This document shows positions 47,669 through 61,411 of a stretch of DNA of 64,000 nucleotides, piece after piece; positions within the stretch are counted from its first letter, which is position 1, and each line of letters starts with the position of its first letter. The stretch is from Paractinoplanes abujensis (GTDB taxonomy: Bacteria; Actinomycetota; Actinomycetes; Mycobacteriales; Micromonosporaceae): assembly GCF_014204895.1 (NCBI RefSeq), contig NZ_JACHMF010000001.1, positions 682,001 through 746,000 on the forward strand, given 5' to 3'. The position numbers were made by a program, and so were the translations under genes. Under the pieces are notes generated by a model. It ran no database searches, was not told the DNA's origin, and saw only the letters and a program-made list of their open reading frames with translations.

Positions 47669-48610
47669 ATGCTGATCGTGGGTGAAGTCCACACCGGCGT
47701 GCTGCGCGGGCGCGGACCGATGAGGGCGAGCGAGGCTGCGCTGCTGGTCGACCTCGTGGCCGGCGAGCCGGTGTTGCGCCTCGACCGCCCTCGGGCGTAC
47801 GTGCGGTCACCCAGCCGCCCCGTCGGGGTCGACTGCCCGCTCGGCGGGGTGTCCTCGGCGCGGCAGGTCCGGGGCATCGGCACCGTTCTGCAACGTGCGG
47901 CGGTCGTCGGCGGCCACATCGTGCAGGGCACCGCGTGGGCTGCCGTGCTCCCGGCCGAAAGCAGCGCACGCCAACCTTGGTCGCACTACTTGGCCCGGCC
48001 CGGCGTGATCGAAGCCATGGGCCGATTTCGTCCGGCCGAGCTGGCCGCCGCTTTCGCCGCCCCCGCCCGCGACACCGCCGCGCTCGACCTGGGTGAGATC
48101 GCTGGCCGTGCGTCCGATGCGGTGCAGAGCGCTGTCCCCGCCGACGGCCGTCCTTACGAGCGGTTGCGCCTGCCCCGCACCCGGCTGCGGTTCGTGATCG
48201 AGCGGGCCGGCGCCCCCAGCCCGCCCCGCCTCACCGTGCACGACGAGCAGCTACGGGTGCTGCGCCTGACCCTGCCGGCCGACGTCGAACCGCGGCTGGT
48301 GGTTGCGTTCGGTGAGGATCTGGCGCTCCACGACTGGCTACTGACCTCGGTAACCGGTCTCGTCGAGCGGGCTGGGATCGGCATTCTTCCGTTCGACGAG
48401 GCGCTGCGACGTCTGCGCCCGGCCGTCCAGCATCTGCTGCACCTCTGGCTGCCCGGCCGCCGCAGCGACCTGACCCGCGATCTGTGGGGGCAGATGGAGC
48501 GACGGGACGCCCTGAGCGATCAGTGGAGACTAGTACGCGATCGCATCCGCGACCTTGTCGCGCTGGCCGCTGTGGAAACGAGCTCGACGAAGAGGGAATT
48601 GGCCCCGTGA
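47669..48610 (+). CDS. SCO2521-like conserved protein of unknown function
   Basis: A 313-residue protein starting MLIVGEVHTGVLRGRG, which I recognise as like the SCO2521 family of Streptomyces and relatives, named only by locus. It shows CPLGGVSSARQVRGIGTVLQRAAVVGGHIVQGTA mid-N-terminal and a C-terminal helical part, with no catalytic motif and no membrane segment. The ATG at 47669 follows AGGGGA by seven nucleotides; an upstream in-frame start at 47627 lacks such a site. Its stop overlaps the next gene's GTG (GTGA, 48607-48610). The related families SCO2522, SCO2523 and SCO2524 lie on the opposite strand just beyond, so the set is nearly complete here. The family match is from memory and should be tested. 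Confidence 0.75.
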   Translation: MLIVGEVHTGVLRGRGPMRASEAALLVDLVAGEPVLRLDRPRAYVRSPSRPVGVDCPLGGVSSARQVRGIGTVLQRAAVVGGHIVQGTAWAAVLPAESSARQPWSHYLARPGVIEAMGRFRPAELAAAFAAPARDTAALDLGEIAGRASDAVQSAVPADGRPYERLRLPRTRLRFVIERAGAPSPPRLTVHDEQLRVLRLTLPADVEPRLVVAFGEDLALHDWLLTSVTGLVERAGIGILPFDEALRRLRPAVQHLLHLWLPGRRSDLTRDLWGQMERRDALSDQWRLVRDRIRDLVALAAVETSSTKRELAP

Positions 48611-49563
48611 GCGTTCCGGCACGTCAGGTCAACGAGAGTTCCGGTGTCATTCGTACGGCCGTGCTCACCGTCGCCACGGGCGGGACAACTTTCCTCGTCA
48701 CCAATGGGCTCGACCAGCCGCAGGCGACCTGCATCATCCTGTCGATCCTCATCGGCGGCATCGTCCTGATAACGCGCTTCCTGATCGCCTTCGAAAAGCG
48801 CCTGGCCGAGGTCGAGAAGCTCGGGGCTGCCGGCATGGCCGATATGAAGAGGCTGGTCGGGGACGCCTTCTTCAAGATCAGTGAGGCGACCGATTTGTTC
48901 GGGTCGGTCGAGGCCTCGGCGCTGCAGACCGACGTGGTGACTCAGCTCGTCCGTAACTCAACGTTGATCTCACCCGATTCGCCGCCGATCGTCCACCGGT
49001 TCGTCGAAGCGAAGATCAAGGAAACCTCGGACTTCCTCAAGCAGCTCTCCGACGGAAGCACGGTGACCTACTACGGCGAGGACCGCGACTGGCTGCTCGG
49101 GTTGACCCGGCACGCCACCGCGAGCATCGACGCGATCAGTCTGGCTTCCGTCGACCACGACCTGTGGAACAGCGAGATCGGCCTGCGCTACCTCGACGCT
49201 CAACGCCGCGCGGCACGGAACGGCATGCGGGTGCGACGCATTTTCGTGCTCGAACGCCCCGACCCGGAGTTGGGCGCCAAGCTGCTCGGTGCGTACGAGG
49301 AGCAGCGCCAGATGGCGATCGACGTGCGGCTGCTCGTTCGCTCCGCCGTTCCGACCCCGCTGCAAATTCAGCTGCGCGACCTGGTCGTTTTCGACGACAT
49401 CGTCGCCTACGAGACCACGCCCACCATCAGCGACCCGCATCTCGCCCAGGTGGCCGAGACCCGGCTGGTGCTGACCGCGGCGCGCGTCAAGGACTGCTCA
49501 CAGATGTTCCGTGAACTGTGGGAGTTGTCCTGCGAACCGGGGACGGGTCAGAGGAACGCGTAG
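48607..49563 (+). CDS. Membrane-anchored protein with PLD-fold-like cytoplasmic domain
   Basis: A 318-residue protein starting at GTG 48607, which overlaps the SCO2521-like stop. Two transmembrane helices (about 14-34 and 39-60) are joined by a short loop, followed by a coiled-coil-like stretch (about 60-95) and a C-terminal domain (about 125-310). That domain has a phospholipase-D-superfamily-like feel: YLDAQRRAARNGMRVRRIFVLERPDPEL, LRDLVVFDDIVAYET. However, no H-x-K-x(4)-D motif is present, so it would be catalytically dead or a binding module. I do not recognise a named family. It is convergent with, and overlaps by 16 bp, the SCO2522-like gene. Confidence 0.65.
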   Translation: MSVPARQVNESSGVIRTAVLTVATGGTTFLVTNGLDQPQATCIILSILIGGIVLITRFLIAFEKRLAEVEKLGAAGMADMKRLVGDAFFKISEATDLFGSVEASALQTDVVTQLVRNSTLISPDSPPIVHRFVEAKIKETSDFLKQLSDGSTVTYYGEDRDWLLGLTRHATASIDAISLASVDHDLWNSEIGLRYLDAQRRAARNGMRVRRIFVLERPDPELGAKLLGAYEEQRQMAIDVRLLVRSAVPTPLQIQLRDLVVFDDIVAYETTPTISDPHLAQVAETRLVLTAARVKDCSQMFRELWELSCEPGTGQRNA

Positions 49564-50507
49564 CCGATGCGCCCGACCGCCTCGTCCGGCAGGTCGAGAC
49601 CCTCGCCCTGTGCCCGCTTGCGCACCTGCTCTACGGCTGCTGGGTCGACGGCGACGTTGCCCAGAATCGTGCGGACCGCCAGCTCGATCGACAGGAAACG
49701 AGAATCGAGTGCGGTGAAGGTCCGGTACGCCCGCATCGGCGCCGCTCTCGGATTCAGTTGAACGACCGGCGCCATCAGCTCCCACTCGACCGGCAGCGTC
49801 TCGGGGGTGGCCGCGACCGGATCGGCAACCGGCCGGCCGAGATGCCGTAGCAGGCCGAGTCGTTGCAGCTGCCATACGGCGGCCAGGAACGGGCACGACC
49901 ACAACCGCCCGCCGTTCGGCTGATCGGCCCACAGCTCGATATCCACGAAGATCGAATGATTGCGGGCGGCGCTCTGCCGCGGCGGCCGCCACTGCCGGGG
50001 CGTGGCCATCGCTGCTGCTGACGTGCCGGGGGAGCGCTCGCCGTTGGTCAGCCAACCGGTCACGCTGGTTGCCGGGCGTCCGTTCGCGCCCTCGGTCGGC
50101 TCGTCCACCAGATGTTCTTGCACCAAGCGGGCCACGTCCACCTCACCCGCTCGCGCGCATCCCGACTCGCGGGCCACATAGTCGATAGTCAACCCGGTCC
50201 TCTCGGCCGCGGCCACAAGCCTGGTCACGACCTCGCGTGGCGAGGAGAACCGGGTGAAGTAGTCGTCGATCAGGAAACACGTGCTGATCCGCGCGCGACC
50301 CGTGGCGACCGACTGCTCTGCTTGACGTACGGCGGTCTCGGCCCACGGGCGTACGCGGTCGAACTGCCGGCGCAGCCGGGAATCACCCTCGTTGAAGTCC
50401 TCCATGTAGAGGTGACCCAGCTCGACCGACAGGTGCGACAGCGCGACCGACCGGACCGGCGCGGCCGGCACGCCGAGCTCAGTGGCAAAATCGTCGGCAG
50501 TCGTCAC
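49548..50507 (-). CDS. SCO2522-like conserved protein of unknown function
   Basis: A 319-residue protein with VRSVALSHLSVELGHLYMEDFNEGDSRLR near the start, which I associate with the uncharacterised SCO2522 family, and RISTCFLIDDYFTRFSSPREVV. No transmembrane segment or catalytic motif. I take GTG 50507 (VTTADDF), whose GTGA overlaps the stop of the P-loop gene; GTG 50519 is an alternative with 16 bp overlap. It is the last gene of the long minus-strand operon and its 3' end overlaps the convergent PLD-fold-like gene. The family match is from memory. Confidence 0.7.
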   Translation of the reverse strand: MTTADDFATELGVPAAPVRSVALSHLSVELGHLYMEDFNEGDSRLRRQFDRVRPWAETAVRQAEQSVATGRARISTCFLIDDYFTRFSSPREVVTRLVAAAERTGLTIDYVARESGCARAGEVDVARLVQEHLVDEPTEGANGRPATSVTGWLTNGERSPGTSAAAMATPRQWRPPRQSAARNHSIFVDIELWADQPNGGRLWSCPFLAAVWQLQRLGLLRHLGRPVADPVAATPETLPVEWELMAPVVQLNPRAAPMRAYRTFTALDSRFLSIELAVRTILGNVAVDPAAVEQVRKRAQGEGLDLPDEAVGRIGYAFL

Positions 50508-51421
50508 AGACGGACCCACGCGTTCTCGTCGACGATCTTCTTAGACAACTCCTCGAAGGCAACCACCGTGCGCTCGTTGGCCGTTCGATGCAGCCACACA
50601 TCGTCGTTGGAGAGGAGCTGCTCCTGCCACTGCAGCACCGGATCGAGCGGTACCTCGCCGATCATGGTGAGCCTGCCCACTCCCTTATTGGCTGCGAGTT
50701 CCTGCAGGCGCTTGTTGCAGACGTCGAGCCACGCCAGTTGCTCGGGGCGCAGGCCCGCCTGGTCGGGTGCCGACGGGTCGAGCACTGCCGTCCGTACGAA
50801 TCGGATCGCCTCGCGCAGCGACTGGGGGTCGTGGCCCAGATGCCCGCCGGTCTCGATGATGCCGTGCCGGCCGTAGACCAGGCCGCTGGCCGTGATGATG
50901 TGCTGCCGGGTCCACCGGTGGAAGACCAGCCAGCGGGCCACGATGTCGCGCAGGGCCTTGTTCTGTGTGGCGGCCAGCACGATCTCGGTCGCATAGGACC
51001 GGCCCGCGCTCAAGTCGACCATGATCAGGTCGTACTCCTCATCGAGCCGCTGGAACAGCGTGACGCAGCGCTCGACGATGCCGGGCTGGGAGCTGAACTC
51101 GCCCCGGCCCACGTCGCCGGGCAGCAGCGTCAGCCGGCCTGCGCCCGCCGGTCGGTTGCGCAACGTCTCTCGCTGCGACTCGGCCCACACGTTGAGCCGC
51201 CGCGGCTCGGGTGCGCCGTCGATCAGGTAACTGTGCAGGCCGCCCTCCTGGACGCCGGCCAGCGCCTCGGGCAGGTCGAAGATCGCGCCGGACGTGGGTG
51301 AGCCGAAGTCGAAGTCGAGATAGCAGACGTCGTAACCCTGCAGCGCGTGCCGGTAGGCCAAGTTGCTGCTGGTCACCGAGCGGCCCGTGCCACCCTTGTC
51401 GGAGGTCGCAAAGATGATCAT
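50504..51421 (-). CDS. SCO2523-like variant P-loop ATPase (MinD/ParA-type)
   Basis: A 305-residue SIMIBI-class protein. It starts MIIFATSDKGGTGRSVTSSN: the deviant Walker A motif keeps the signature Lys (K-G-G) but has Arg where MinD/ParA proteins have the catalytic-loop Lys (KGGTGRS at residues 9-15). YDVCYLDFDFGSPTSG is switch-I-like, and YDLIMVDLSAGRS is the Walker-B-like strand. This matches the variant P-loop family named after SCO2523. Such ATPases usually position other proteins or act as switches. The start overlaps the SCO2524-like stop by 1 nt (TGATG). Confidence 0.8.
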   Translation of the reverse strand: MIIFATSDKGGTGRSVTSSNLAYRHALQGYDVCYLDFDFGSPTSGAIFDLPEALAGVQEGGLHSYLIDGAPEPRRLNVWAESQRETLRNRPAGAGRLTLLPGDVGRGEFSSQPGIVERCVTLFQRLDEEYDLIMVDLSAGRSYATEIVLAATQNKALRDIVARWLVFHRWTRQHIITASGLVYGRHGIIETGGHLGHDPQSLREAIRFVRTAVLDPSAPDQAGLRPEQLAWLDVCNKRLQELAANKGVGRLTMIGEVPLDPVLQWQEQLLSNDDVWLHRTANERTVVAFEELSKKIVDENAWVRL

Positions 51422-53277
51422 CAGCTGATCCCGCTGTCGGCCCGCCGCGCCGCGGAGAGGCGGTCGAGCTTGCGCAGCACCTCTTCGGCCACGGCGACAG
51501 CCACACCGGGCCGTTCCCGGCGCACGGCCCGCGCCCGCCGCAGCTCGGTGCCGATCCGTTCCAGCTCGATGCGCAGCGTCTCGCCGCGTGTCGTCGTGCC
51601 GTTGAGCAGCTCACGGTCGTACAGGTGGTCGGCCTCGCTGAGCAGGTCGGCCGCAATCTGGGTAAGCAGGGTGCTACGCAGCGGCGGGTTGTTGATCAGC
51701 CGCGCCGCCGCCACGAGACAGTCGACCACACGCTTCGTGTAATACCAGGACACCTCGCGGACCTCGTCGGGCAGGTATTTGTATGCTCCTGCCGCACGGT
51801 CCCACAGCCCGTGGTCATCGCCCTCGCGCAGCACCCGCTCCTGCAGGTGCGACCAGATCGCGTCGGCGAGGTCGAGCAGGCGGGAGCGAACGGGACCGTC
51901 ATCGACCATGTCGGCCAGGGTGAGCGCCCGCTTGAAGAGGGTGGGCGCGATGTCGGCGACCGTCCAGGCCAGCCGCGGGCCACCGTGACCCTCACTGCCT
52001 TCGAGCGGGAAGCGCAGGCCCGGGTGGTGGATTTTGACCGCGGCTTCGGGTTCTGTGGACCGCCGGGTGATTCGGCTGCGGTTGGCCAGTTCCTCAAGCA
52101 CCTCGGTCACGCGGCCCAGCTCCGTGGTGGCCGGCCGGACGGCCTGCATGTTCTGGATGACCACGCCCGTGACCAGCAGGCTGAAGTAGTCGAACTCGAT
52201 GCCGTCAGTGGTGCGCCAGGGCAGATCTTCAATCGGCCAGCGACCCGACCCGAATGTGGCGACGGCTGCCCAGTAGGACCGGGTGAGCTCGAAGCGCAGC
52301 TGCAACGACTGCGCAAGTCGGACTTGCTCGGCGTCGAGCAGGCCGAGCAGCCGGGTGCGTTCCGACGAGAGCGCCTGGACGGCGTCCATGGCCACGGTGG
52401 TGAAGTAGAGGTAAGGCGCGTTCTGCGCGGCGCCGGCACACTGCTCGCCGATCGAGGCCGACGTCTCGATTGTGGGTGCCTCCTGCACGACACCCCACGA
52501 CCAGCCGCACTCGAAGAGCCGATTCGGGTTGTCGAGTTCGTTGCCCTCGGCGGCGCCGGAACCGATCGTGACGTCGTCCCGCAAGCGGGCGTTGATCTCA
52601 CGGAGCGCCTCGCGCAGTTCGTCGACTACCTGGTGGCTGGGCCGTCGCTCCTGGTTGACCGTGCGTACCAGTTCCAGGCCGGCGAGGCTGTCGGCCGTGA
52701 AGACGTTGACCGCAAAACTGCGGAGCAGACCTGCCATCGCCGCCGTCAAGCGCAAGCTGGCCGCCTTCTCCAACTCGTCGACCTGCGTGAGCAATGACGC
52801 ACGGGTAACGACCTGCCGGAAGATCTTGGTGAAGCCGATCGTGGCCAGCATCAGCGTGACCGAGATGGAGAACGAGTCGACCACGTCGAGCTCGCGCTGC
52901 TCCTGCTTGATCTCGGCGCCCGGGCTCTCGTTCTCGTCGACCGAGAAATACGAGTCGCCGGAGAAGACGGGGGTACCGCCGGAATCGGTGTACCGGTCGA
53001 TGTAACTGCGCAGTGCCCGCAACAGCCGCTGCGGGATCTGCAGGTTGTCGCCGACCGTCCGCAACGTGTCGAGCACGTCGCTGGCGACCGCGTCAGGATT
53101 GTCGAGACGGAACAGCGGAATCTCGGTAGCCGGAGCCATGATGCACAACAGTTGCTCGGCGTCGCTGATCGAGTTGCTGCCGCTGCGCCCGCCTGGAAAC
53201 CACTCACCGTCGTGATAGGAAACCCGGGCTGTGGACCGCCAGATGTCGAGAAGCTGCTGGCGTGGTTGGATCTGCAT
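51421..53277 (-). CDS. SCO2524-like large conserved protein of unknown function
   Basis: A 618-residue, largely alpha-helical soluble protein that starts MQIQPRQQLLDIWRSTARVSYHDGEW, with DAEQLLCIMAPATEIPLFRLDNPD soon after; I recognise the SCO2524 family. The mid-region has VDSFSISVTLMLATIGF and a helical stretch RSFAVNVFTADSLAGLELV, and the C-terminus is highly charged (ELRRARAVRRERPGVAVAVAEEVLRKLDRL). No known enzymatic motif. An AGGA Shine-Dalgarno precedes the ATG. It begins 15 nt after the stop of the DAAO gene on the same strand, linking the SCO252x genes to the amino-acid genes. Its stop overlaps the P-loop gene start. Confidence 0.75.
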   Translation of the reverse strand: MQIQPRQQLLDIWRSTARVSYHDGEWFPGGRSGSNSISDAEQLLCIMAPATEIPLFRLDNPDAVASDVLDTLRTVGDNLQIPQRLLRALRSYIDRYTDSGGTPVFSGDSYFSVDENESPGAEIKQEQRELDVVDSFSISVTLMLATIGFTKIFRQVVTRASLLTQVDELEKAASLRLTAAMAGLLRSFAVNVFTADSLAGLELVRTVNQERRPSHQVVDELREALREINARLRDDVTIGSGAAEGNELDNPNRLFECGWSWGVVQEAPTIETSASIGEQCAGAAQNAPYLYFTTVAMDAVQALSSERTRLLGLLDAEQVRLAQSLQLRFELTRSYWAAVATFGSGRWPIEDLPWRTTDGIEFDYFSLLVTGVVIQNMQAVRPATTELGRVTEVLEELANRSRITRRSTEPEAAVKIHHPGLRFPLEGSEGHGGPRLAWTVADIAPTLFKRALTLADMVDDGPVRSRLLDLADAIWSHLQERVLREGDDHGLWDRAAGAYKYLPDEVREVSWYYTKRVVDCLVAAARLINNPPLRSTLLTQIAADLLSEADHLYDRELLNGTTTRGETLRIELERIGTELRRARAVRRERPGVAVAVAEEVLRKLDRLSAARRADSGIS

Positions 53278-53292
53278 CAGCCGTCCTGTCGG

Positions 53293-54282
53293 TCAGTCGG
53301 GGAGCGGGGTGACCAGGTCGAGCACTTCCGTTGCGCAACCCCAGGCGAGGCTCACGCCGGAGCCGCTGTGGCCGTAGTTGTGGATCACGTGACCGTCCTG
53401 CGTCGTGACCAATTCGAGTCTTACGGTGGGCCGGTGCGGCCGGATACCGACTCGATGCTCGAGAATTTCCGAGTGTCCTATCCTGGGGTCGATCTCGGCG
53501 CAGCGCCGCACTATTGCTTCGGCCGTCGTGGTATCGGGTTCGTAGCCGTCTGCGTCCGGTTCGGCGCAGCCGCCGAGGAGCAACACGTCGTCGCCCTGGG
53601 GCAGAAAGTACGTCGAGTCGTCTATTCCGCTGCTCTGTTCGATGAAGAACTCCGCGATTCCTGGGTTTCGCACCGCCACGAGCTGGCCGCGTATGGGTCG
53701 TACCGACGGATCCGGCACAAGGTCCCGAGCGCCATATCCACCGCAGTTGACCACGACCCGCGCCTCTGCCATGGCCTCGCTCAAGGTGGTGAGCCGTCGC
53801 CTCACCACCTCTGCGCCCAGCGACTGCAACTCTGCGCCCAGGAAAGCCAGATAGGCCGGCATATCGATGACTGGCGCCCGGTAGCGCCATCCGACTGCGA
53901 AGCCGGTGGGCAGCTCATCGCGCTCACACACTCGGAACTCGGGCAGATTTCGACTCCAGCCCGGGATCTCCACCAACGTCTGCGAGGCCTCGATGCCCGA
54001 CAGCATCCGGACGCCGGGTACGCCGTCGACGGCCATGCGGGCGAAGCGTCCTAGGGATTCCTCGGCCCACCGGCCGCGGTGGGGGTGCTCGGCGTAGAGC
54101 GGGTCCCAGATGGCTCCCGCCGCCGATGACGTGCGCGAGGGGCATCGGTCTGCGGCGTACACACGAACCTTCAGCCCGGACTTCGCCAGGCGCAAGGCGG
54201 TGGTGAGGCCGATCACGCCGGCGCCCACGACAACGACGTCGGCCGGTGATCCCGAATGCGGATCGCTGCTCGGGCCGATCAT
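53293..54282 (-). CDS. D-amino-acid-oxidase-like FAD protein, copy 2
   Basis: A 329-residue flavoprotein of the DAAO family. The FAD motif is VVVVGAGVIGLTTALRLAKSG (about 16-36). The substrate carboxylate-binding Arg lies in GIRPHRPTVRLE, and HVIHNYGHSGSGVSLAWGCA is the C-terminal FAD-binding motif. DAAO-type enzymes oxidise D-amino acids to imino acids plus H2O2. It is roughly 40-50 percent similar, by eye, to the other DAAO-like gene at 56202. Its ATG overlaps the preceding hydroxyacid-dehydrogenase-like stop (ATGA). The gene is in the middle of the operon and ends 15 nt before the SCO2524-like gene. Confidence 0.85.
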   Translation of the reverse strand: MIGPSSDPHSGSPADVVVVGAGVIGLTTALRLAKSGLKVRVYAADRCPSRTSSAAGAIWDPLYAEHPHRGRWAEESLGRFARMAVDGVPGVRMLSGIEASQTLVEIPGWSRNLPEFRVCERDELPTGFAVGWRYRAPVIDMPAYLAFLGAELQSLGAEVVRRRLTTLSEAMAEARVVVNCGGYGARDLVPDPSVRPIRGQLVAVRNPGIAEFFIEQSSGIDDSTYFLPQGDDVLLLGGCAEPDADGYEPDTTTAEAIVRRCAEIDPRIGHSEILEHRVGIRPHRPTVRLELVTTQDGHVIHNYGHSGSGVSLAWGCATEVLDLVTPLPD

Positions 54283-55250
54283 GGCTGAGCTCTTCGCTCG
54301 CGATGATCAGGGTTGTTCACCAGAGGCGATCCGAGACCGTCGAGCACGTCGCACACTGCCTGGGCGGCAGCCGAACTCGATCGAAGGTTCGCTTCGTGTG
54401 TGCGGTAAGCCGTTGAGACCGAGGCGACGAACCGGTGCGGGTCGAGACTCTCCAAGTGTTTCCACTCGGGCCCCTTGCCGAGACCGTCGAACGCGGCTTT
54501 GATGCGTCCTGCCTCGATCGCCTCGGCCAGCGCCGAGGGGTCAACGAGACGCGGATGGCCCGTATTGACCAGCATGGCCCCCGTACGCATACCACCCAGT
54601 TCAAGGGCGCCCAACAACGGCGGTTCCCCCTCGGCCGGTCCGGGCCGGTGCAGGCAGATGGCGTCGGACTCCGAAATAAGCTCCTCGATGCTGACATGAC
54701 GCATTCCGAGGGCAGCCTCGAGTGGCTCGTTGCGGCGAGGCGCTGCGTAGATGACGCGCATGCCGAATCCCAGGGCAGCAGTCCGGGCTACCCGTGAACC
54801 GATCCGGCCGGCGCCCACGATGCCGAGAGTCCGGCCACCGAGCTCATCGCCCAGCGGCCCGGGCGGCAGGGGCCGGGCGAGAGTCAGAAGGAGACGGATG
54901 GTGTGCTCGGCCACCGCCGTCGCATTCGTTCCGGGAGTGTTCGCAAATGCTATGCCGAGCTCGAAGGCGCGTTGCCAACCCGGAACGTGGGCCCGGAAAT
55001 CGGTGCCCAGGAAGGCGACAGCTTCCAACGCCGTGGCTTGCTCGAAGTGTTCGGTTGTGGGTACTTCCTCGCCGCCGATCAGATATCCGCGGATTCCGAT
55101 CAAAGCGGCGTGCAGCTCTTCGGGGTTGAGCGCGTGATCCGGGACCAGACGTACCTCGTAGTGTCTTTCCTCGATCATCGTGAGGACGCTGGAGGGGGTG
55201 CTGTCCCCGGTCACAAGTATCTTGCCGGAAGATCGGTGGGTGAACACCAT
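54279..55250 (-). CDS. D-2-hydroxyacid dehydrogenase-like protein with altered active site
   Basis: A 323-residue protein of the phosphoglycerate dehydrogenase / D-isomer-specific 2-hydroxyacid dehydrogenase fold. The Rossmann motif is GIVGAGRIGSRVARTAALGFG (about 145-165) and the substrate-domain segment is FLGTDFRAHVPGW, followed by NTPGTNATAVAEHTIRLLL. At the usual catalytic positions the protein departs from the family: the Arg of N-T-x-R-G is replaced by His (NTGHPRLVD), the Glu of A-x-D-V-F-x-x-E-P is missing (AFDGLGKGPEW), and the T-P-H motif is SVSTAYRTH. It may be inactive, moonlight or have a new chemistry. It lies between the methyltransferase-fold gene (12-nt gap) and the second DAAO gene (ATGA overlap). 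Confidence 0.78.
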   Translation of the reverse strand: MVFTHRSSGKILVTGDSTPSSVLTMIEERHYEVRLVPDHALNPEELHAALIGIRGYLIGGEEVPTTEHFEQATALEAVAFLGTDFRAHVPGWQRAFELGIAFANTPGTNATAVAEHTIRLLLTLARPLPPGPLGDELGGRTLGIVGAGRIGSRVARTAALGFGMRVIYAAPRRNEPLEAALGMRHVSIEELISESDAICLHRPGPAEGEPPLLGALELGGMRTGAMLVNTGHPRLVDPSALAEAIEAGRIKAAFDGLGKGPEWKHLESLDPHRFVASVSTAYRTHEANLRSSSAAAQAVCDVLDGLGSPLVNNPDHRERRAQP

Positions 55251-55262
55251 GAACTCCGTTCT

Positions 55263-56195
55263 TCAGCGGACGCGGTACGAGATCAGGGTGAAGGTGCCGC
55301 GTGCTGAAAAGGCTTCGTACCGGTCGATCCCAGGTGTGTGCAGAGCAGGGCTTAAGTGTTGCTGGATCGCATCCACAAGCGGGCCGGTGGAGTCCGCCTG
55401 AACGTCGTCGGGTTCGTGCTCGATGACCAGTCGTCCGTGGTGCACATGCTCGGTCAGCCGGCGCAACATCCCGACGGTCAGCTCCGTGAAGGGACGCGGC
55501 GCGGAGCCGGTCGGCTGGCCTACCATCGCTCCGACACGCTCGAGCACAGCCGATGCCGCCGTGCGCACCTCGGCCGGGGCGGTCACAGTAGGAGATGTCG
55601 GGCCAAACGGCGGCGACGTGTAGACGAGCGCAGGCGTCGCTGCCGGGTTCAATGCGCGCCACGCTTGCGGATCGGTCGCATCCCCGCATACCACGCGAAC
55701 GGTCGATGATCTGGGTGGTGCGATCTCCAGATCGGTCGCGAACATGGAGGCATGCGCCGTCCGGCCGTGGGCAGCCCGGACAGCGGCCAGTACGGCCAGC
55801 GCTGACACCACGACCGCGTCGGCCGGATCGATCCGATCGGCGATGTCCGTCAACGCCGAGGTCAGCCAGCCCGTTTGGCCGGCGGCAGCGAGCGGCGGCA
55901 ACAGCGGAACGTGCCGGAATTGCGCCGTCGCTTTGGCCAGGGTCACGCAGGCGAGCAGGGGATCGCGCTCGATACCGAAGAAGTCGAGCCCGAGTATTCG
56001 TGCGGCCGCCGCAGTGCTGCCACCACCACAGAAAGGATCGATGACCACGGCCGGTCCGGCGGTGCGGAGCTTGCTCAGGATGTCCGCTGTGGTCCGGGCG
56101 TTGGAGGCGTTCTTGGCCTGAAACCAGCGGTCCACCGGCTCGGACGGGTCGGGGTCGTAACCCCTGCTGTCGATCTGGGTGTTGAGTGTGCTCAT
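55263..56195 (-). CDS. Amino-methyltransferase-fold protein (DNA/RNA N-methylase-like)
   Basis: A 310-residue protein with hallmarks of SAM-dependent amino-methyltransferases: motif I DPFCGGGSTAAAA (about 53-65), motif II GIERDP, and motif IV TSPPFGPTSP (about residue 183), the order I then IV seen in the gamma class and in tRNA G10-type enzymes. The N-terminal stretch DRWFQAKNASNARTTADILSKL also fits that group. It has no target-recognition domain, no endonuclease partner and no RNA-binding THUMP, so the substrate is not obvious; small molecule, tRNA or DNA are all possible. It lies between the two DAAO-like genes' cluster members with 6-12 nt gaps, so it is part of the operon. It does not look like the SCO2525-type methyltransferase that accompanies SCO2521-2524 in Streptomyces. 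Confidence 0.75.
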   Translation of the reverse strand: MSTLNTQIDSRGYDPDPSEPVDRWFQAKNASNARTTADILSKLRTAGPAVVIDPFCGGGSTAAAARILGLDFFGIERDPLLACVTLAKATAQFRHVPLLPPLAAAGQTGWLTSALTDIADRIDPADAVVVSALAVLAAVRAAHGRTAHASMFATDLEIAPPRSSTVRVVCGDATDPQAWRALNPAATPALVYTSPPFGPTSPTVTAPAEVRTAASAVLERVGAMVGQPTGSAPRPFTELTVGMLRRLTEHVHHGRLVIEHEPDDVQADSTGPLVDAIQQHLSPALHTPGIDRYEAFSARGTFTLISYRVR

Positions 56196-56201
56196 CTCGA
56201 C

Positions 56202-57149
56202 CTATCCGAGCAGGGCGGTGACATCGCGCGCGCATCCCCAGGAAAGGGTCACGCCGGATCCACCGTGTCCGTAGTTGTGAATGACGACCGTGTCGTCGTG
56301 AACCTCTCGCTCCAACCGGACTTGCGATCGAACCGGTCGCAGCGCGGACTGCTGGTGGAGCGTCCGAGCCTGCTCCAGCCTGGGCTCGATCGCCGCGCAC
56401 CGGGCGCGGATGCGGGCCGCCATGTCGGCAACTGCTTGCCGGCTGTCCGGCTCCTCGTCGAGGAGGCAGCCGCCGAGGATCACGTGGTCGGAGTGGGCGA
56501 TGTAGTAGGTGGGCTCGGCATCTTCCGGATAGTCGGAGAAGAAGCCTGGTTCGATGCCCGGATTTTCTACCTGGACGAGGAGTCCCCAGCTTGCCGTCAC
56601 CTCGGGATCGGGCACCAGGCGACGGGCGCCCAGCCCCGCGCAATTGATGACCGCGTCGGCCTCGGCCATCGCCTCGCGTATGCCGCGGAGCGGGCGGGTG
56701 AGCATTTCGGTCCGCACCTTGAGGTCGTTCAGTCTCTGTTGGAGATATCGCAGGTAGACCGGCATCTCAAAGATGGGCGCTGAATACGTCCAGCCGGCCA
56801 CGAAACCGTCCGGGATCCGCTCCGGAGCCAGGACGGCGTAGCCCGGCAAGTTGTGCAGCCAGGCCGGTGGCGACATCTCGATCCGGGACGCCTCGTATCC
56901 GCCCACGAACTGGACGCCTGCGTCCGCGCCCAGCGATCCTACTTCGCGCAGAGTCAGCAGACTCCACCGAAGCACCCGGTCGTCGGAGACCAGATAGGGC
57001 CCCCACAACGCCCCCGCCCTCGCCGACGTCGTCTCGCTGGGGCGGTGGGCCGTGAGAACCGTGACGCTGCAACCGGCCTCGGCGAGAGAAAGCGCGGTTG
57101 TCATGCCGACGACTCCGGATCCGATGACCACAACGTCGGCGCTCGCCAT
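56202..57149 (-). CDS. D-amino-acid-oxidase-like FAD protein, copy 1
   Basis: A 315-residue DAAO-family flavoprotein, beginning VVVIGSGVVGMTTALSLAEAG. The conserved SARAGALWGPY segment, the carboxylate-binding Arg in ALRPVRSQVRLE and the C-terminal VVIHNYGHGGSGVTLSWGCA are all present. Compared with the copy at 53293 the substrate loop is different (PTYYIAHSD against STYFLPQGD), suggesting a distinct substrate. It follows the aminotransferase gene by 9 nt with an AAGGTGG Shine-Dalgarno and precedes the methyltransferase-fold gene by 6 nt. Confidence 0.85.
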   Translation of the reverse strand: MASADVVVIGSGVVGMTTALSLAEAGCSVTVLTAHRPSETTSARAGALWGPYLVSDDRVLRWSLLTLREVGSLGADAGVQFVGGYEASRIEMSPPAWLHNLPGYAVLAPERIPDGFVAGWTYSAPIFEMPVYLRYLQQRLNDLKVRTEMLTRPLRGIREAMAEADAVINCAGLGARRLVPDPEVTASWGLLVQVENPGIEPGFFSDYPEDAEPTYYIAHSDHVILGGCLLDEEPDSRQAVADMAARIRARCAAIEPRLEQARTLHQQSALRPVRSQVRLEREVHDDTVVIHNYGHGGSGVTLSWGCARDVTALLG

Positions 57150-57158
57150 GCGTCCACC

Positions 57159-58331
57159 TTAGTCACGCCGATTACGCAGAGGAAGACGACGATGGACGTT
57201 GCGTGTTCGGCTGAGGGACTCGACGAAGAGGTCGATGCCGCGGGCGAAGTAGGCGGGATCGCGCATCAGTGCGAGACGGACGAAAGTGCCTGTCTCGAGG
57301 GACTCCCCGGCCCAGAAGAACTGATCTCCGTTGAGCACCTCCAGCTGCCGGGCCCGGCACTCCTCGAGGAGCGTGTCTCGGCCCGTGGGCAGCCTCAGCC
57401 ACTCCACACTCAGCGCAGGATTACGGTCTCGCCGCCGCGGATCCTGGCCGATGGAACCCACCTGCGCCTCGATGGCGTTGTCGAAGTAGGCCCGATTCTT
57501 GAGAATGATCTTCCGGGCACGTTCGAGTTCGTTGTCGGGCCGGCTCGGATCCAGCATGACGGTGAGTGCTCGGAGCCCTAGTTCCGAGACGTTCAGCAGG
57601 TATTGCGTGTGGATGGCGCGAATCGGCTCGCTCAGACGGCGAGTGACGCCGATGACCGCCGCTTTGACATCTGCGAAGGCGAGCGCCTTGCCCGTGTCGT
57701 CGATGGTGATGAGGTCGGCACCTTGCTCCTCGGCCGCTCGGACGAGGTCCCAGCGCATCGTGTCGTCACACCAGCGAAAGGCGGTGTCCACGACCAGGAG
57801 GACATCGCGGGCGGCGGCCCAGCCGATCAGCTCCTCCAACGACGCCCGGGTCGGGCAGCGTCCGGTGGGGTTGTTCGGGGCGACCAGGACCAGGGCTCCC
57901 AGTCCGTTCAGATCCAGCCGGGCGAGGTCGACCGTCGGTGTCAGGTCTCGCTCGTCAATCGGAATCGGCTTGATGTCCAGCGTGCGCAGGAGCCCCGGAA
58001 TGTTGTCGAAGGTGGGGCAGACGACGCCGACCGGCCGGTCCATCCTCCTCAGGTGACTGGCGACGGCGGACATCGCGACCGAGGACGCATAGGTCACGAA
58101 GGTCCGGCCGTCCGGATACTCCTGTCCGGTGTGATGGGTCAGCGCGCGGAGAAACTGCCGCTCGGCCTCGGGGTAGTCCGGCCGGGTCCCGGCTAGTGCC
58201 CTCTCGACCGCAGTCCTGATGCCGGCCTGGCTTTCGGCCGAGAGAGTTTGATGCGCGTGCCCGTCCGAAAGGTTGATCACACGTGGGTCGAGGGCGCGGA
58301 GTTCCAGTTCGGTGAGATTGCGGGCGGTCAT
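57159..58331 (-). CDS. PLP-dependent aminotransferase, class I/II fold
   Basis: A 390-residue fold-type-I PLP enzyme. The N-terminal segment is RVINLSDGHAHQTLS, the A-P-N-N-P-T-G motif is at about residue 155, VDTAFRWCDD holds the Asp that binds the pyridine nitrogen, and TIDDTGKALAFADVKAAVI contains the candidate Schiff-base Lys. It resembles histidinol-phosphate/aspartate-type aminotransferases found in biosynthetic clusters. I chose ATG 58331, with GGAGGAG three nucleotides upstream; the longer GTG start at 58343 would place that site inside the gene. It follows the small membrane protein gene by 12 nt and probably supplies or consumes an amino acid handled by the DAAO-like enzymes. Confidence 0.82.
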   Translation of the reverse strand: MTARNLTELELRALDPRVINLSDGHAHQTLSAESQAGIRTAVERALAGTRPDYPEAERQFLRALTHHTGQEYPDGRTFVTYASSVAMSAVASHLRRMDRPVGVVCPTFDNIPGLLRTLDIKPIPIDERDLTPTVDLARLDLNGLGALVLVAPNNPTGRCPTRASLEELIGWAAARDVLLVVDTAFRWCDDTMRWDLVRAAEEQGADLITIDDTGKALAFADVKAAVIGVTRRLSEPIRAIHTQYLLNVSELGLRALTVMLDPSRPDNELERARKIILKNRAYFDNAIEAQVGSIGQDPRRRDRNPALSVEWLRLPTGRDTLLEECRARQLEVLNGDQFFWAGESLETGTFVRLALMRDPAYFARGIDLFVESLSRTRNVHRRLPLRNRRD

Positions 58332-58343
58332 TTTCTCCTCCAC

Positions 58344-58622
58344 TCAAAGTGCCTGCTGATCGTTCGGTTCGTTGTCGAAGCGGCGGCCGGGCCGATGATA
58401 TGAAACGCCGATGCGGGCGGCCGTGAATGCCAGCGAAAGCAGCGGCGCGAAGGTGGTCAGGAGTGCGAAGTCGTCAAGAAAATAACTGGGAACGGCGACG
58501 ACCAGCGAGAGGGTCTGCATCAATTCGATGATCAGCGCCAGCGCGTTGTTCCCGTGTTGACAGTGGCACTCGAACTCTCCAGGCGAATGCCGGCCGCCGG
58601 CGAACTTCCTGAATCGCCGCAT
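58344..58622 (-). CDS. Small two-helix membrane protein, first gene of the operon
   Basis: A 92-residue protein starting MRRFRKFAGGRHSPGEFECHCQ. ATG 58622 is preceded by GGAGGAA with correct spacing, whereas a longer frame from 58706 has no such site. Two hydrophobic helices (about 28-50 and 54-75: ALALIIELMQTLSLVVAV, FALLTTFAPLLSLAFTA) follow a C-H-C motif and end in an Arg/Asp-rich tail. I do not recognise a family. It lies directly upstream of the aminotransferase and is divergent from the XRE-type regulator, so it is the likely first gene of the operon. Confidence 0.65.
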   Translation of the reverse strand: MRRFRKFAGGRHSPGEFECHCQHGNNALALIIELMQTLSLVVAVPSYFLDDFALLTTFAPLLSLAFTAARIGVSYHRPGRRFDNEPNDQQAL

Positions 58623-58703
58623 GACATTCCTCCATCTCGCTTCCGTTATTGCGGCCAGCATGAGGACTGTTCGTGCCTCCAGGAAAGCGGGCGACTCGGC
58701 CTT

Positions 58704-58748
58704 CACGCAATGCGTGCACCGCGCTCTGCACGTGTCGCGTGCAGAGCG
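58704..58748. promoter_or_regulatory. Two palindromes in the divergent operon/regulator intergenic region
   Basis: CACGCA-A-TGCGTG (58704-58716) is a perfect 13-bp palindrome. CGCTCTGCACG (58722-58732) and CGTGCAGAGCG (58738-58748) are an 11-bp perfect inverted repeat with a 5-nt loop. They lie in the 218-bp region between the operon start (58622) and the XRE-type regulator (58841), which also has repeated CCGTTGA boxes (about 58812-58826). These are good candidates for the regulator's operators, or for transcript hairpins. Confidence 0.6.
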
Positions 58749-58840
58749 GTCGCCGGTGGTCGACGGGCTGCCCGGAGCGGAGCTAGCCTGCAGCTAGTCC
58801 GGCGCTTCGGGCCGTTGACCGTTGACCTCGGGAGACGACA

Positions 58841-60190
58841 GTGGACAAGCAGCACGGCAGTGCATGTGGACGCCGCCTGGCGGAGCAGGTCAAGCAGGCT
58901 CGGGGCACCCCCTACGACGCGGCTCACGCGATTCACCAGCACTGCGGTGTCTCGCTGCTGCGCGCCCATCGGGTGGCCCACGGCTATACCTTGACCGACG
59001 TCGCCGACCGTTTGAAAGAGATCCTGCGCGACCGGGGAGTTGTCAGTGATGGCCTGGCCCATCAGATGATCTCCCGTTGGGAGAGCGGTTCTGACACGCC
59101 GTCGGCCCGCTATTTCGACGCCCTGTGTTACCTCTACCGCACCAGGCCTGACCGTCTCGGTTTCGGTCACGACTACACGGAGCCGGACGAGCCGTCTCGA
59201 AAAGTGGATGTGCCCGACGGAGTGGAGGTGCTGACGGCCGAAGGGCTGGGCACAGTTCGCCTCAACGGTCGCACCGCCCGTCAAGCAGTTTCCTACTTCG
59301 AGCAGCGGGCCGACGACAGTGGCTACGGGCTCTACACGACCGCGCCACTCGATTTCGTGCCGGCCCGGATGATGGATATCGCCGCGATTCAGCGTTTGCT
59401 GTTGCAGCGGCAGCCGGTCGGCCTGGAACGGCGTCTTTATCGCACGCTGGCCAAGAATGCGGGCTTCATCGGTGTGCGGCTCACCGACGTCGCCAGCGTT
59501 CACGAGACCATGAACTGGTTCGGTGTGGCCCGGCATGCCGCTCGCCGGGCCCAGGACGCCGGTATCGAGGCGTGGATTGCCGGTCACCTCTGTGATGCCC
59601 ATGCCTGCTACGGGCACTCGCTGCGGCAAGGGCTGGACGCCGCGCGAGTGGCGCAGCTGGCCAGCGGGTCGGCGCCCAACTCGGCGGCGCTCTTCGGCTA
59701 TCTGTCGGAGGCCGGCGTCCAGGCCCGGCTGGGTAACCGCCGGGAGACGCTGGTGGCCGTCCGCACGGCGGAGCGCATATTCGACGAGCTGCCCCCAGAG
59801 ATGATCGCGGCGGACGGCATCCGTATCCCGGAGTACTTCCTGCGCTGGCACCAGTCGAATGCCCTCAGCATCGTGGGTGAGGGCCGGCTCGCCGATCCGC
59901 TACGACACCGGGCGCTGGAACTCACCTCGGTAAGCGGAGATCTTGTCGGCCGTTCCCTGCTTCATCTTGATCGGGCTGCCGTCATGTTCGCGTCCGGTGA
60001 GGTCGATGGCGCTTGTCAGTCGGTCCGGGCGGCGTGGGACGTGCCGACGGAGTTTCACGTCGGCCAGATCCCGGAGCGGACCAAGACCATCCTGAGCGCC
60101 TTGCCGTCGAGCAAGACGAGCACCTCCGAGGTGCGCCATCTCGTCGAATACCTGCGATCACTGAACGGATCCCGGCTTTACCCGGCGTGA
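58841..60190 (+). CDS. XRE-type HTH regulator with TPR-like C-terminal domain
   Basis: A 449-residue regulator. An N-terminal HTH (about residues 35-100) reads RAHRVAHGYTLTDVADRLKEILRDRG, LAHQMISRWESGSDTPSARYFDALCYLY, the Cro/C1-type pattern. The rest (about 150-449) is a helical, TPR-like sensor domain typical of large actinomycete regulators that respond to peptides or metabolites. GTG 58841 has GGGAGA eight nucleotides upstream. The gene is divergent from the nine-gene operon and probably controls it through the palindromes between them. Confidence 0.8.
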   Translation: MDKQHGSACGRRLAEQVKQARGTPYDAAHAIHQHCGVSLLRAHRVAHGYTLTDVADRLKEILRDRGVVSDGLAHQMISRWESGSDTPSARYFDALCYLYRTRPDRLGFGHDYTEPDEPSRKVDVPDGVEVLTAEGLGTVRLNGRTARQAVSYFEQRADDSGYGLYTTAPLDFVPARMMDIAAIQRLLLQRQPVGLERRLYRTLAKNAGFIGVRLTDVASVHETMNWFGVARHAARRAQDAGIEAWIAGHLCDAHACYGHSLRQGLDAARVAQLASGSAPNSAALFGYLSEAGVQARLGNRRETLVAVRTAERIFDELPPEMIAADGIRIPEYFLRWHQSNALSIVGEGRLADPLRHRALELTSVSGDLVGRSLLHLDRAAVMFASGEVDGACQSVRAAWDVPTEFHVGQIPERTKTILSALPSSKTSTSEVRHLVEYLRSLNGSRLYPA

Positions 60191-60252
60191 CTGCCGGAGT
60201 GCGACCAGCGGTGTGATCCACGCCGCAGCGCAGGTTCTTTGATTTTGAAATA

Positions 60253-60266
60253 GTTGCCGGGTCAAC
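60253..60266. promoter_or_regulatory. Possible MarR-type half-site pair upstream of the monooxygenase gene
   Basis: GTTG (60253-60256) and CAAC (60263-60266) form an inverted GTTG-n6-CAAC element in the AT-rich stretch between the XRE gene and the luciferase-like gene. MarR-family regulators often bind such TTGA/TCAA sites at flavin monooxygenase operons. The match is weak and no marR gene is in the window. Confidence 0.3.
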
Positions 60267-60325
60267 GAGGTTGAGGGTGGCAGTACGCGGGACACATACG
60301 GGTCCCGGGGCAGAGGGAGCGGGTC

Positions 60326-61411
60326 ATGCAGTTCGGAATCTTCAGCGTCAGCGACATCACGACCGATCCGACGACCGGGCAGACGCCGACCGAGCACGAG
60401 CGCATCAAGAACATCGTGACGATCGCCAAGCACGCCGAGGAGGTCGGTCTCGACGTCTTCGCGCTCGGCGAGCACCACAACGAGCCGTTCTTCTCGTCGT
60501 CGCCCACCACCACACTCGGCTACATCGCCGCGCAGACCGACAATCTGCTGCTCAGCACGGCGACCACGCTGATCACCACCAACGACCCGGTGAAGATCGC
60601 CGAGGACTACGCGATGCTGCAGCACTTGTCGGGCGGCCGCGTCGACCTGATGATGGGGCGCGGCAACACCGGGCCGGTCTACCCCTGGTTCGGCAAGGAC
60701 ATCCGGGCCGGCATCCCGCTCGCCATCGAGAACTACGCGCTGCTGCACAAGCTGTGGCGTGAGCACGTCGTCGACTGGTCCGGCAAGTTCCGTACGCCGC
60801 TGCAGTCGTTCACGTCGACCCCGCGCCCGCTCGACGGCATCCCACCGTTCGTGTGGCACGGCTCGATCCGCAGCCCCGAGATCGCTGAGCAGGCCGCCTT
60901 CTACGGCGACGGTTTCTTCGCCAACCACATCTTCTGGCCGAAGGAGCACACGCAGCGGATGATCGCGCTCTACCGCCAGCGTTTCGCGCACTACGGCCAC
61001 GGCGACCCCGACCGGGCCATCGTCGGTCTCGGCGGGCAGGTCTTCATGCGCAAGAACAGCCAGGACGCGGTCAAGGAGTTCCGGCCGTACTTCGACAACG
61101 CACCGGTCTACGGCCACGGCCCGTCACTGGAGGACTTCACCAGCCAGACGCCGCTCACCGTGGGCAGCCCGCAGCAGGTGATCGACCGCACGCTGGGCTT
61201 CCGCGACTACGTCGGCGACTACCAGCGCCAGCTGTTCCTGCTCGACCACGCCGGTCTGCCGCTGAAGACCGTGCTGGAGCAGCTCGACCTGCTCGGCGAG
61301 GAAGTCGTGCCGGTGCTGCGCAAGGAGTTCGCGTCGCTCAAGCCGGCCCACGTGCCGGACGCCCCTACCCACGCCTCGATGCTCGCCGCCCGGCAGGAGG
61401 TCGCCGCATGA
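60326..61411 (+). CDS. LLM-class (luciferase-like) FMN-dependent monooxygenase, CE1758 type
   Basis: A 361-residue luciferase-like TIM-barrel flavoenzyme. Motifs include MQFGIFSVSDI at the start, DVFALGEHHNEPFFSSSPTTTLGYIAAQT, VDLMMGRGNTGPVYPWFGKD and FFANHIFWPKEHTQRM. I recognise the CE1758-type family that occurs with a dedicated FMN reductase. It oxidises an organic substrate with FMNH2 and oxygen; the substrate is unknown. The stop overlaps the reductase start (ATGA), so they are translated together. GAGGGAG precedes the ATG. Confidence 0.88.
   Translation: MQFGIFSVSDITTDPTTGQTPTEHERIKNIVTIAKHAEEVGLDVFALGEHHNEPFFSSSPTTTLGYIAAQTDNLLLSTATTLITTNDPVKIAEDYAMLQHLSGGRVDLMMGRGNTGPVYPWFGKDIRAGIPLAIENYALLHKLWREHVVDWSGKFRTPLQSFTSTPRPLDGIPPFVWHGSIRSPEIAEQAAFYGDGFFANHIFWPKEHTQRMIALYRQRFAHYGHGDPDRAIVGLGGQVFMRKNSQDAVKEFRPYFDNAPVYGHGPSLEDFTSQTPLTVGSPQQVIDRTLGFRDYVGDYQRQLFLLDHAGLPLKTVLEQLDLLGEEVVPVLRKEFASLKPAHVPDAPTHASMLAARQEVAA

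Follow-up and report, generated by a model that had tools for sequence, protein, structure and literature searches.

Among described loci, the closest counterpart of the one reported here is SCO2521–SCO2525 of Streptomyces coelicolor and its relatives. Passages of one study name SCO2521–2526 as an operon in the HupS regulon and SCO2525 as a gene that S. coelicolor requires to grow normally (PMC11472566); the literature found on the SCO2521–SCO2524 families otherwise holds passing mentions at most. Within a window of 64,000 nucleotides from Paractinoplanes abujensis (the whole stretch of DNA analyzed, in a genome that forms a single contig of 9.33 Mb), we detected a locus between positions 47,669 and 60,190 that shares with S. 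coelicolor the four families SCO2521–2524, all above their cut-offs, and the gene order 2524-2523-2522. While the S. coelicolor locus contains SCO2525, the window locus has in its place a module consisting of an NsdA-type regulator, a small membrane protein, a pyridoxal phosphate (PLP)-dependent oxidase, a D-amino-acid oxidase (DAAO), an N-methyltransferase and a putative reductase, with a second DAAO in addition. Loci of this type comprise a four-protein core (SCO2521–2524), an exchangeable slot, a DAAO that is often present, and a site for a methyltransferase, normally SCO2525. We tentatively read the locus, with a confidence that falls somewhat short of calling it probable, as a modular chromosomal conflict or stress-signaling system of hyphal actinomycetes, linked to STAND proteins and built of exchangeable parts, in which the module would make or clear an arginine-derived amino acid.

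Other described systems resemble parts of the locus. The PLP enzymes MppP, RohP, and Ind4 oxidize L-arginine with O2 and serve pathways to bioactive compounds, according to sections of PMC7497351. The window PLP oxidase is only ~30–35% identical to them, has Ala where MppP has Ser190 (as in 22 of 29 relatives, itself included), and, unlike these three, belongs with neighbors that are SCO252x or STAND genes. Eukaryotic-type D-amino-acid and D-aspartate oxidases share their motifs with the window DAAOs, which are bacterial and operon-encoded. Passages of a survey of predicted NTP-dependent conflict systems in multicellular bacteria (Kaur et al. 2020, PMC7159879) describe trypsin/Trypco and MoxR parts, as well as the pairing of a caspase gene with a hydrolase-like neighbor, a pairing also present in two of the genomes compared here (G902 and G889, the hydrolase match being weak). 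Relatives of our locus carry DUF4062-NACHT-HEAT, NA-iREase3-NACHT, or caspase-STAND-type proteins of the kind belonging to such systems, while the window carries a DUF6879 protein; neither SCO25xx names nor amino-acid oxidases were found in the text of that survey. A 2026 paper (PMC13174449), the main text of which does not mention SCO25xx, reports DUF4062 to be a TIR-like NADase with activity against phage in the Swarozyc system. The alternative slot protein has this domain at its N-terminus, while the window itself has no DUF4062. The literature found on DUF6879 and DUF4062 contains no mention of DUF6879.

Organization of the locus

The features of the locus are as follows (positions in the window).

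47669..48610, plus strand: SCO2521-family protein (NCBIfam NF040565, 281 bits, cut-off 150; open frame from 47627)
48607..49563, plus strand: DUF6879 protein with an N-terminal membrane anchor, lacking HxKx4D (PF21806, 29.3 bits, cut-off 23.9)
49548..50507, minus strand: SCO2522-family protein (445 bits, cut-off 200), predicted model similar to class I aminoacyl-tRNA synthetase catalytic cores
50504..51421, minus strand: SCO2523-family ParA/MinD-like P-loop protein (477 bits, cut-off 200; KGGTGRS motif)
51421..53277, minus strand: SCO2524-family protein, predicted alpha/alpha toroid (878 bits, cut-off 300)
53293..54282, minus strand: DAAO2, D-amino-acid/D-aspartate-oxidase-like flavoprotein (by motifs; in the tree among DAAOs of the genus that reside beside SCO252x)
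54279..55250, minus strand: 2-hydroxyacid-dehydrogenase-fold protein lacking the catalytic Arg, Glu, and His by alignment; proposed imine reductase
55263..56195, minus strand: N-methyltransferase-fold protein (invariant DPxxGxGS and SPPF motifs); proposed SCO2525 replacement
56202..57149, minus strand: DAAO1, module-type DAAO (sister of the Frankia sp. QA3 module DAAO, support 1.0)
57159..58343, minus strand: PLP- and O2-dependent amino-acid oxidase, probably of L-arginine, in its own subclade of the MppP/RohP clade (by sequence clade and motifs)
58344..58622, minus strand: small membrane protein of 92 residues, clustering with no gene of the other compared loci
58841..60190, plus strand: NsdA-family HTH/TPR-like module regulator (93 bits, cut-off 75; homologs in Frankia sp. 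QA3, 55%, and G732, 45%)

The layout proposed in the original prediction was borne out. Between 58622 and 49548, successive gaps of 0, 9, 6, 12, −4, 15, −1, and −4 nt (gene calls) separate the nine genes on the minus strand, and the reading frames of these nine, of the converging pair and of the regulator are uninterrupted. A sigma-70-type consensus scan, which is weak evidence, revealed no terminator-like or promoter-like sites in 49000–60400, including the junction between 53277 and 53293, where by the terms of the prediction a strong terminator or promoter would have counted against it. The SCO2521 and DUF6879 genes (47669–49563, plus strand) converge on SCO2522 with an overlap of 16 nt, and the predicted XRE/TPR-type regulator, here placed in the NsdA family as TPR-like, diverges from the operon across 218 nt. 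The four SCO252x assignments held, as all scores exceed the NCBIfam equivalog cut-offs, and so did the variant P-loop ATPase, the KGGTGRS motif of which is invariant in 8/8 aligned sequences; the standard motif of such proteins is KGGxGKT/S. Literature searches on the KGGVGR motif returned no match.

A module at the position of SCO2525

We examined 76 regions with tblastn, 70 of which had SCO2522, SCO2523, and SCO2524 (the six lacking SCO2522 or SCO2523 were excluded). These regions are not a random sample, as the window, L061, and L082 came by other routes and same-genus genomes are over-represented. SCO2521 was present in all 70 complete loci. SCO2525 is absent from the window locus and present in 46 of the 67 loci that have no module methyltransferase. 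As the copy scored in L178 is broken, an apparently whole SCO2525 remains in 46/70.

The locus nearest to the window by SCO2524 identity, among 30 loci and apart from the window's own, is L111 of genome G033. Both flanks are 89–97% identical between the two, and the core including DUF6879 is 82–93% identical. At the site that in the window is taken up by the regulator, the small membrane protein, the PLP oxidase, both DAAOs, the methyltransferase, and the reductase, L111 carries SCO2525; its single DAAO lies beside SCO2521. The GC content at third codon positions (GC3) is 0.73–0.81 in the module genes, 0.82–0.90 in the core, and 0.90–0.95 in three flanking genes, and the lower value of the module is consistent with its later arrival.

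The same set recurs in distant genomes. In Frankia sp. QA3, the enzyme set and regulator precede SCO2524-2523-2522-2521-DUF6879, all on one strand, with identities of 58% for the DAAO (to DAAO1), 34% for the methyltransferase, 45% for the PLP oxidase, 45% for the reductase, and 55% for the regulator. The genus names of the numbered genomes that follow (Streptomyces-like G732 and G902, Kitasatospora G889) are names that we infer. In G732, where the set has no DAAO, a stretch of ~4.5 kb containing other genes separates SCO2524 from the regulator and the three enzyme genes (methyltransferase, PLP oxidase, and reductase), and SCO2525 survives as broken fragments beside SCO2524 (near 4078617–4079115, L213). 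G902, of the same genus as G732, contains SCO2525 fragments immediately before the module methyltransferase (near 5742864–5743123, L212), flanked on one side by genes that flank the SCO2525 operon in the Streptomyces-type loci L177, L179, and L183. In both G902 and G889 the order is methyltransferase, PLP oxidase, reductase, then a protein of 1427 or 1436 residues, then a gene with weak hydrolase-fold matches; SCO2524 is absent from both genomes. An intact SCO2525 was found at the locus in 0/5 module genomes, and Frankia sp. QA3 and G889 gave no SCO2525 match at all, while weaker homologs lie elsewhere in G732 (122 bits) and G902 (126 bits), below the cut-off of 240.

Considering the L111 locus, which has the same flanks with SCO2525, the broken SCO2525 copies in G732 and G902, and the GC3 difference, these sequence comparisons indicate that the methyltransferase, PLP oxidase, and reductase are a rare mobile module swapped in where SCO2525 is expected. 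A plasmid origin was rejected (SCO2524 and the methyltransferase had no plasmid match, and the PLP oxidase matched two plasmid records at 26–28% identity), and so was a phage origin, with no PLP-oxidase match confirmed in viral contigs. Metagenomic PLP-oxidase and methyltransferase matches had two contig sizes in common (53920 and 10978). A comparison of the metagenomic SCO2522 matches (120 of 1030 listed) with PLP-oxidase contigs gave, besides Frankia sp. QA3, one equal size (31241) with differing sources, which we did not trust.

The only SCO2525-type match of the window genome (G000:C1:4490005) lies 3.8 Mb away. There, in contig 1 at 4481000–4500000 (L211), the SCO2525 methyltransferase domain is the C-terminal part of a 1323-residue protein that has SAV_2336 at its N-terminus and also contains CATRA-N/C. 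Its gene stands in one row with genes for Trypco2, trypsin-like, and MoxR/MadB-like proteins. Separately, SCO2525 of L177 (10853–11698) matches the nicotinamide/phenylethanolamine N-methyltransferase family PF01234 with 26.3 bits (cut-off 25), a match of interest next to DUF4062 proteins, which are reported in part of PMC13174449 to release nicotinamide.

Linkage of the DAAO genes to SCO2524

Both DAAO genes had been predicted, correctly, as DAAO-like, with the correction that neither is visibly altered: they retain a full-length DAO fold, the dinucleotide motif, and the RPxRxxxRL and HNYGH[GS]G motifs, and their best solved relatives are D-amino-acid oxidase and D-aspartate oxidase. A search with DAAO1 gave 69 matches (E ≤ 1e-20), spread over 39 of 60 genomes. 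Of the 28 same-genus genomes with SCO2524 (the window's included), 24 have a DAAO no more than 15 kb away from it, where ~0.006 per genome would be expected, and thus the association of amino-acid genes with SCO252x goes beyond chance; in the same sample a DAAO was found near SCO2524 in 0/3 genomes of other genera. Among the 70 complete loci, 43 have a DAAO and 27 do not, and it is frequently a separate gene of differing orientation. Co-occurrence was the test put forward with the original prediction, and the amino-acid genes do co-occur with SCO252x. The association stands, while a fixed SCO252x pathway does not, the enzymes being an insertable module at the SCO2525 site. In the tree, DAAO1 groups with the Frankia module DAAO (support 1.0) and DAAO2 falls among DAAOs beside SCO252x in the window's genus, its exact placement being weak (support 0.32).

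Predicted enzymology of the module

The gene at 57159–58343 had been called an aminotransferase. Its closest solved relatives are the arginine oxidases MppP (8e-36) and RohP (1e-31), and an ordinary transaminase was therefore rejected. E14, D27, H29, and the lysine of DTGK are invariant in 29/29 aligned relatives, and the window protein has the N-terminal DGHA and DTGK lysine motifs of the arginine-oxidase clade; in MppP, catalytic roles are ascribed to E15, D27, and H29. Its sequence places it in the MppP/RohP/Ind4 clade of PLP-dependent arginine oxidases, with L-arginine as the probable substrate. It is not MppP itself, since it scores 119.4 of the 450 bits required by the MppP equivalog model TIGR04462.

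For the hydroxyacid-dehydrogenase-like gene (54279–55250), the fold was correctly predicted and the activity was not. The protein keeps the nucleotide-binding glycines, and of the Arg, Glu, and His triad of D-2-hydroxyacid dehydrogenases, Arg is replaced by His or Ser and His is lost in 5/5 module reductases, with Gly in the column of Glu in the window protein. An active hydroxyacid dehydrogenase was rejected on these grounds, and we propose a candidate imine reductase from the alignment. Ind5 is an imine reductase; literature searches on indolmycin, Ind5, and arginine gave no match. Reductase-type genes adjoin PLP oxidases in 12/49 loci, 10 of which lack SCO252x, and such neighbors in L082 and L206 (other subclades) keep Arg and also lack His.

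The predicted methyltransferase fold could be specified. The D, P, G, G, and S of the S-adenosylmethionine motif and SPPF are invariant in 19/19 sequences, and Pfam N6_N4_Mtase scores 25.1 bits, slightly below its cut-off of 26.7. By its DPFxGxGS and SPPF motifs, the 55263–56195 product is an SPPF-type (SPPY/DPPY-type) N-methyltransferase.

An exchangeable slot and its STAND proteins

Between SCO2522 and SCO2521, the 70 complete loci contain DUF6879 in 47 cases, a NACHT and HEAT protein of ~1400 residues in 14, and both in none. All six NACHT-HEAT slot proteins scanned are DUF4062-NACHT-HEAT. Three of the remaining nine loci have NA-iREase3-NACHT beside SCO2524 (by tblastn; 2/2 scanned). Each of the large proteins that follow the module in G902 and G889 combines a caspase domain with an NTPase region of the STAND type; the G902 protein, the one scanned for WD40 repeats, has these as well. 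PADLOC matched only L138 among five partner proteins, with HEAT-ARM_XIII over the WD40 part, and had no model for 2/3 STAND-type partner proteins.

The converging membrane gene of the window had been assigned a phospholipase D (PLD) fold. The convergence was confirmed and the fold was not: the gene belongs to DUF6879, and HxKx4D is present in 0/47 DUF6879 cluster members of 290–360 residues (a count that omits 6 of 53 members of other lengths), so an active PLD enzyme was rejected. A hydrophobic N-terminal segment in 47/47 DUF6879 partner proteins tested makes the predicted membrane link of the SCO252x machinery plausible.

Core proteins

SCO2524 is present in 140/250 genomes of the window's family, and the core is patchy beyond it (7/396 phylum genomes; 16/81 genomes of the genus of G391). 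The predicted model of SCO2522 resembles class I aminoacyl-tRNA synthetase catalytic cores, with arginyl-tRNA synthetase (ArgRS) ranked first and a best Foldseek E of 0.19; no sequence-profile link of SCO2522 to ArgRS or any solved structure was found. Two full-length ArgRS genes occur in 3/8 genomes tested (G000, the window's own, G033, and G889). This doubling is not correlated with the module, as G033 has no PLP-oxidase relative of the clade. A second SCO2524 copy lies near the first in G009 (L120) and G017 (L125), and L120 has a DAAO-type gene between the copies.

Possible function of the locus

The conflict or stress-signaling reading draws support from the recurring linkage of the module to SCO2524 (Frankia sp. 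QA3, G732) and from the DAAO neighborhoods. A link to STAND proteins is suggested by the alternation of DUF6879 and NACHT-HEAT, by the NA-iREase3-NACHT neighbors, and by the caspase-STAND-type gene after the module in G902 and G889. Likeness to conflict systems also arises from the SCO2525 domain of the window genome, which is part of a SAV_2336-CATRA protein and has Trypco2, trypsin, and MoxR-like genes as neighbors. The overall interpretation of the original prediction, a membrane-linked machine coupled to an unusual amino acid, is partly supported; it had missed the STAND alternatives in the DUF6879 slot, which change the likely function.

Based on these families, we propose a theoretical scheme. 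The PLP oxidase would use O2 to convert an L-amino acid, with arginine as the likeliest substrate, to a 2-imino or 2-keto acid that is unsaturated or hydroxylated, the reductase would then turn the imine into a D- or otherwise altered amino acid, and the methyltransferase would N-methylate it. The DAAOs may clear or activate the D-form, releasing H2O2. SCO2522, through its aminoacyl-tRNA-synthetase-like predicted fold, together with SCO2523 and SCO2524 might sense the compound and set the state of the membrane DUF6879 protein as the output. In a more specific version, which we regard as speculative and rather improbable, an amino acid would serve as second messenger in an NLR-like system of bacteria. 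The module would turn L-arginine into an N-methylated or D analog, SCO2522 with SCO2523/2524 would read it and gate a DUF6879 effector (in relatives a DUF4062-NADase, NA-iREase3, or caspase STAND-type protein), and DAAO would act as the off-switch.

Several observations weigh against a conflict system. The window itself has no STAND protein, its slot being DUF6879; NA-iREase3 carries the annotation of an inactive nuclease domain, and the two caspase proteins score 21.8 and 20.1 bits with the NACHT model, below the Pfam cut-off of 26.7. In PADLOC, the ten window proteins scanned (of 12) gave only methyltransferase and weak unspecific matches, with no known-system model fitting, and the L113 NACHT-HEAT, L205 caspase, and SCO2525 proteins gave no match. 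DAAO is found in 0/9 Streptomyces-type loci. SCO2525 is also absent from 21/67 module-free loci, and its absence is thus not module-specific. The module is rare, with the close-clade PLP oxidase in 1/250 genomes of the family, 2/297 of the family of G391, and 1/35 of the Frankia family; its methyltransferase occurs in 3/70 loci, two of which (window and Frankia) did not come from the SCO2524 sampling. The synthetase-like fold of SCO2522 comes from a predicted model with a Foldseek E of 0.19 at best and no profile match. Finally, the HupS regulon and the growth role of SCO2525 would fit development as well.

Control of development is the main rival, although we consider it unlikely. SCO2521–2525 would then control growth and differentiation, with the module tuning an amino-acid signal for hyphal development and the NACHT neighbors as another signaling input. 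The HupS regulon and the need for SCO2525 in normal growth (passages of PMC11472566) agree with this, and so does a core common in the window's family. The module regulator belongs to the NsdA family, and NsdA, which gave the family its name, regulates Streptomyces development. On the other hand, the core is patchy across the phylum and the genus of G391, the slot is exchanged with DUF4062-NACHT proteins, and a fusion of SCO2525 with CATRA domains has Trypco2, trypsin, and MoxR-like neighbors. Less likely still is a natural-product pathway in which a small antimetabolite derived from arginine is the joint product of the PLP oxidase, reductase, methyltransferase, and DAAOs, the genes of which merely adjoin SCO252x. 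The roles of MppP, RohP, and Ind4 in bioactive-compound pathways (sections of PMC7497351) point that way, as do the 12/49 loci with PLP oxidase and reductase-type neighbors, ten of them lacking SCO252x. However, co-localization with SCO252x is repeated in three distant genomes, the module sits at the site of a decayed SCO2525, and no synthetase or exporter family was found among the ten genes scanned. This explanation is weakened yet keeps some probability, because 47/49 wider-family PLP-oxidase loci show no SCO252x gene within the stretch examined (≤10 kb on each side), which also counts against a conflict system.

One operon encodes two motif-intact DAAO-type flavoenzymes together with a PLP oxidase that depends on O2, and a DAAO is present in 43/70 loci, which could also suggest oxidative suicide, with these enzymes as effectors that make H2O2 and drain NAD(P)H and arginine once the core is triggered. 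We find this very unlikely, as the slot already holds a candidate effector and DAAO is missing from 27/70 loci, often being separate and differently oriented. That a rearrangement put an unrelated amino-acid operon beside SCO2524 by chance would agree with a rare and sporadic module, but it is the least credible explanation: the chance of lying within 10 kb is ~0.2% per 9-Mb genome, yet both Frankia and G732 also have the set beside SCO252x, and the DAAO is linked in 24/28 genomes.

With these results, the SCO2521–2524 proteins common in hyphal actinomycetes gain testable partners: a membrane or STAND slot protein, a DAAO, and either a methyltransferase or an arginine-oxidase module, the two being interchangeable. 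If the module does make a small molecule and the core reads it, a signal derived from an amino acid would operate in a bacterial system of the immune or suicide type; otherwise, the locus still defines a subclade of oxidases dependent on O2 and PLP whose reductase and methyltransferase partners are unusual.

Adjoining gene

Next to the locus, positions 60326–61411 of the window encode a CE1758-family FMN-dependent luciferase-like monooxygenase (713 bits, cut-off 479), a piece of the flank common to other genomes of the genus.

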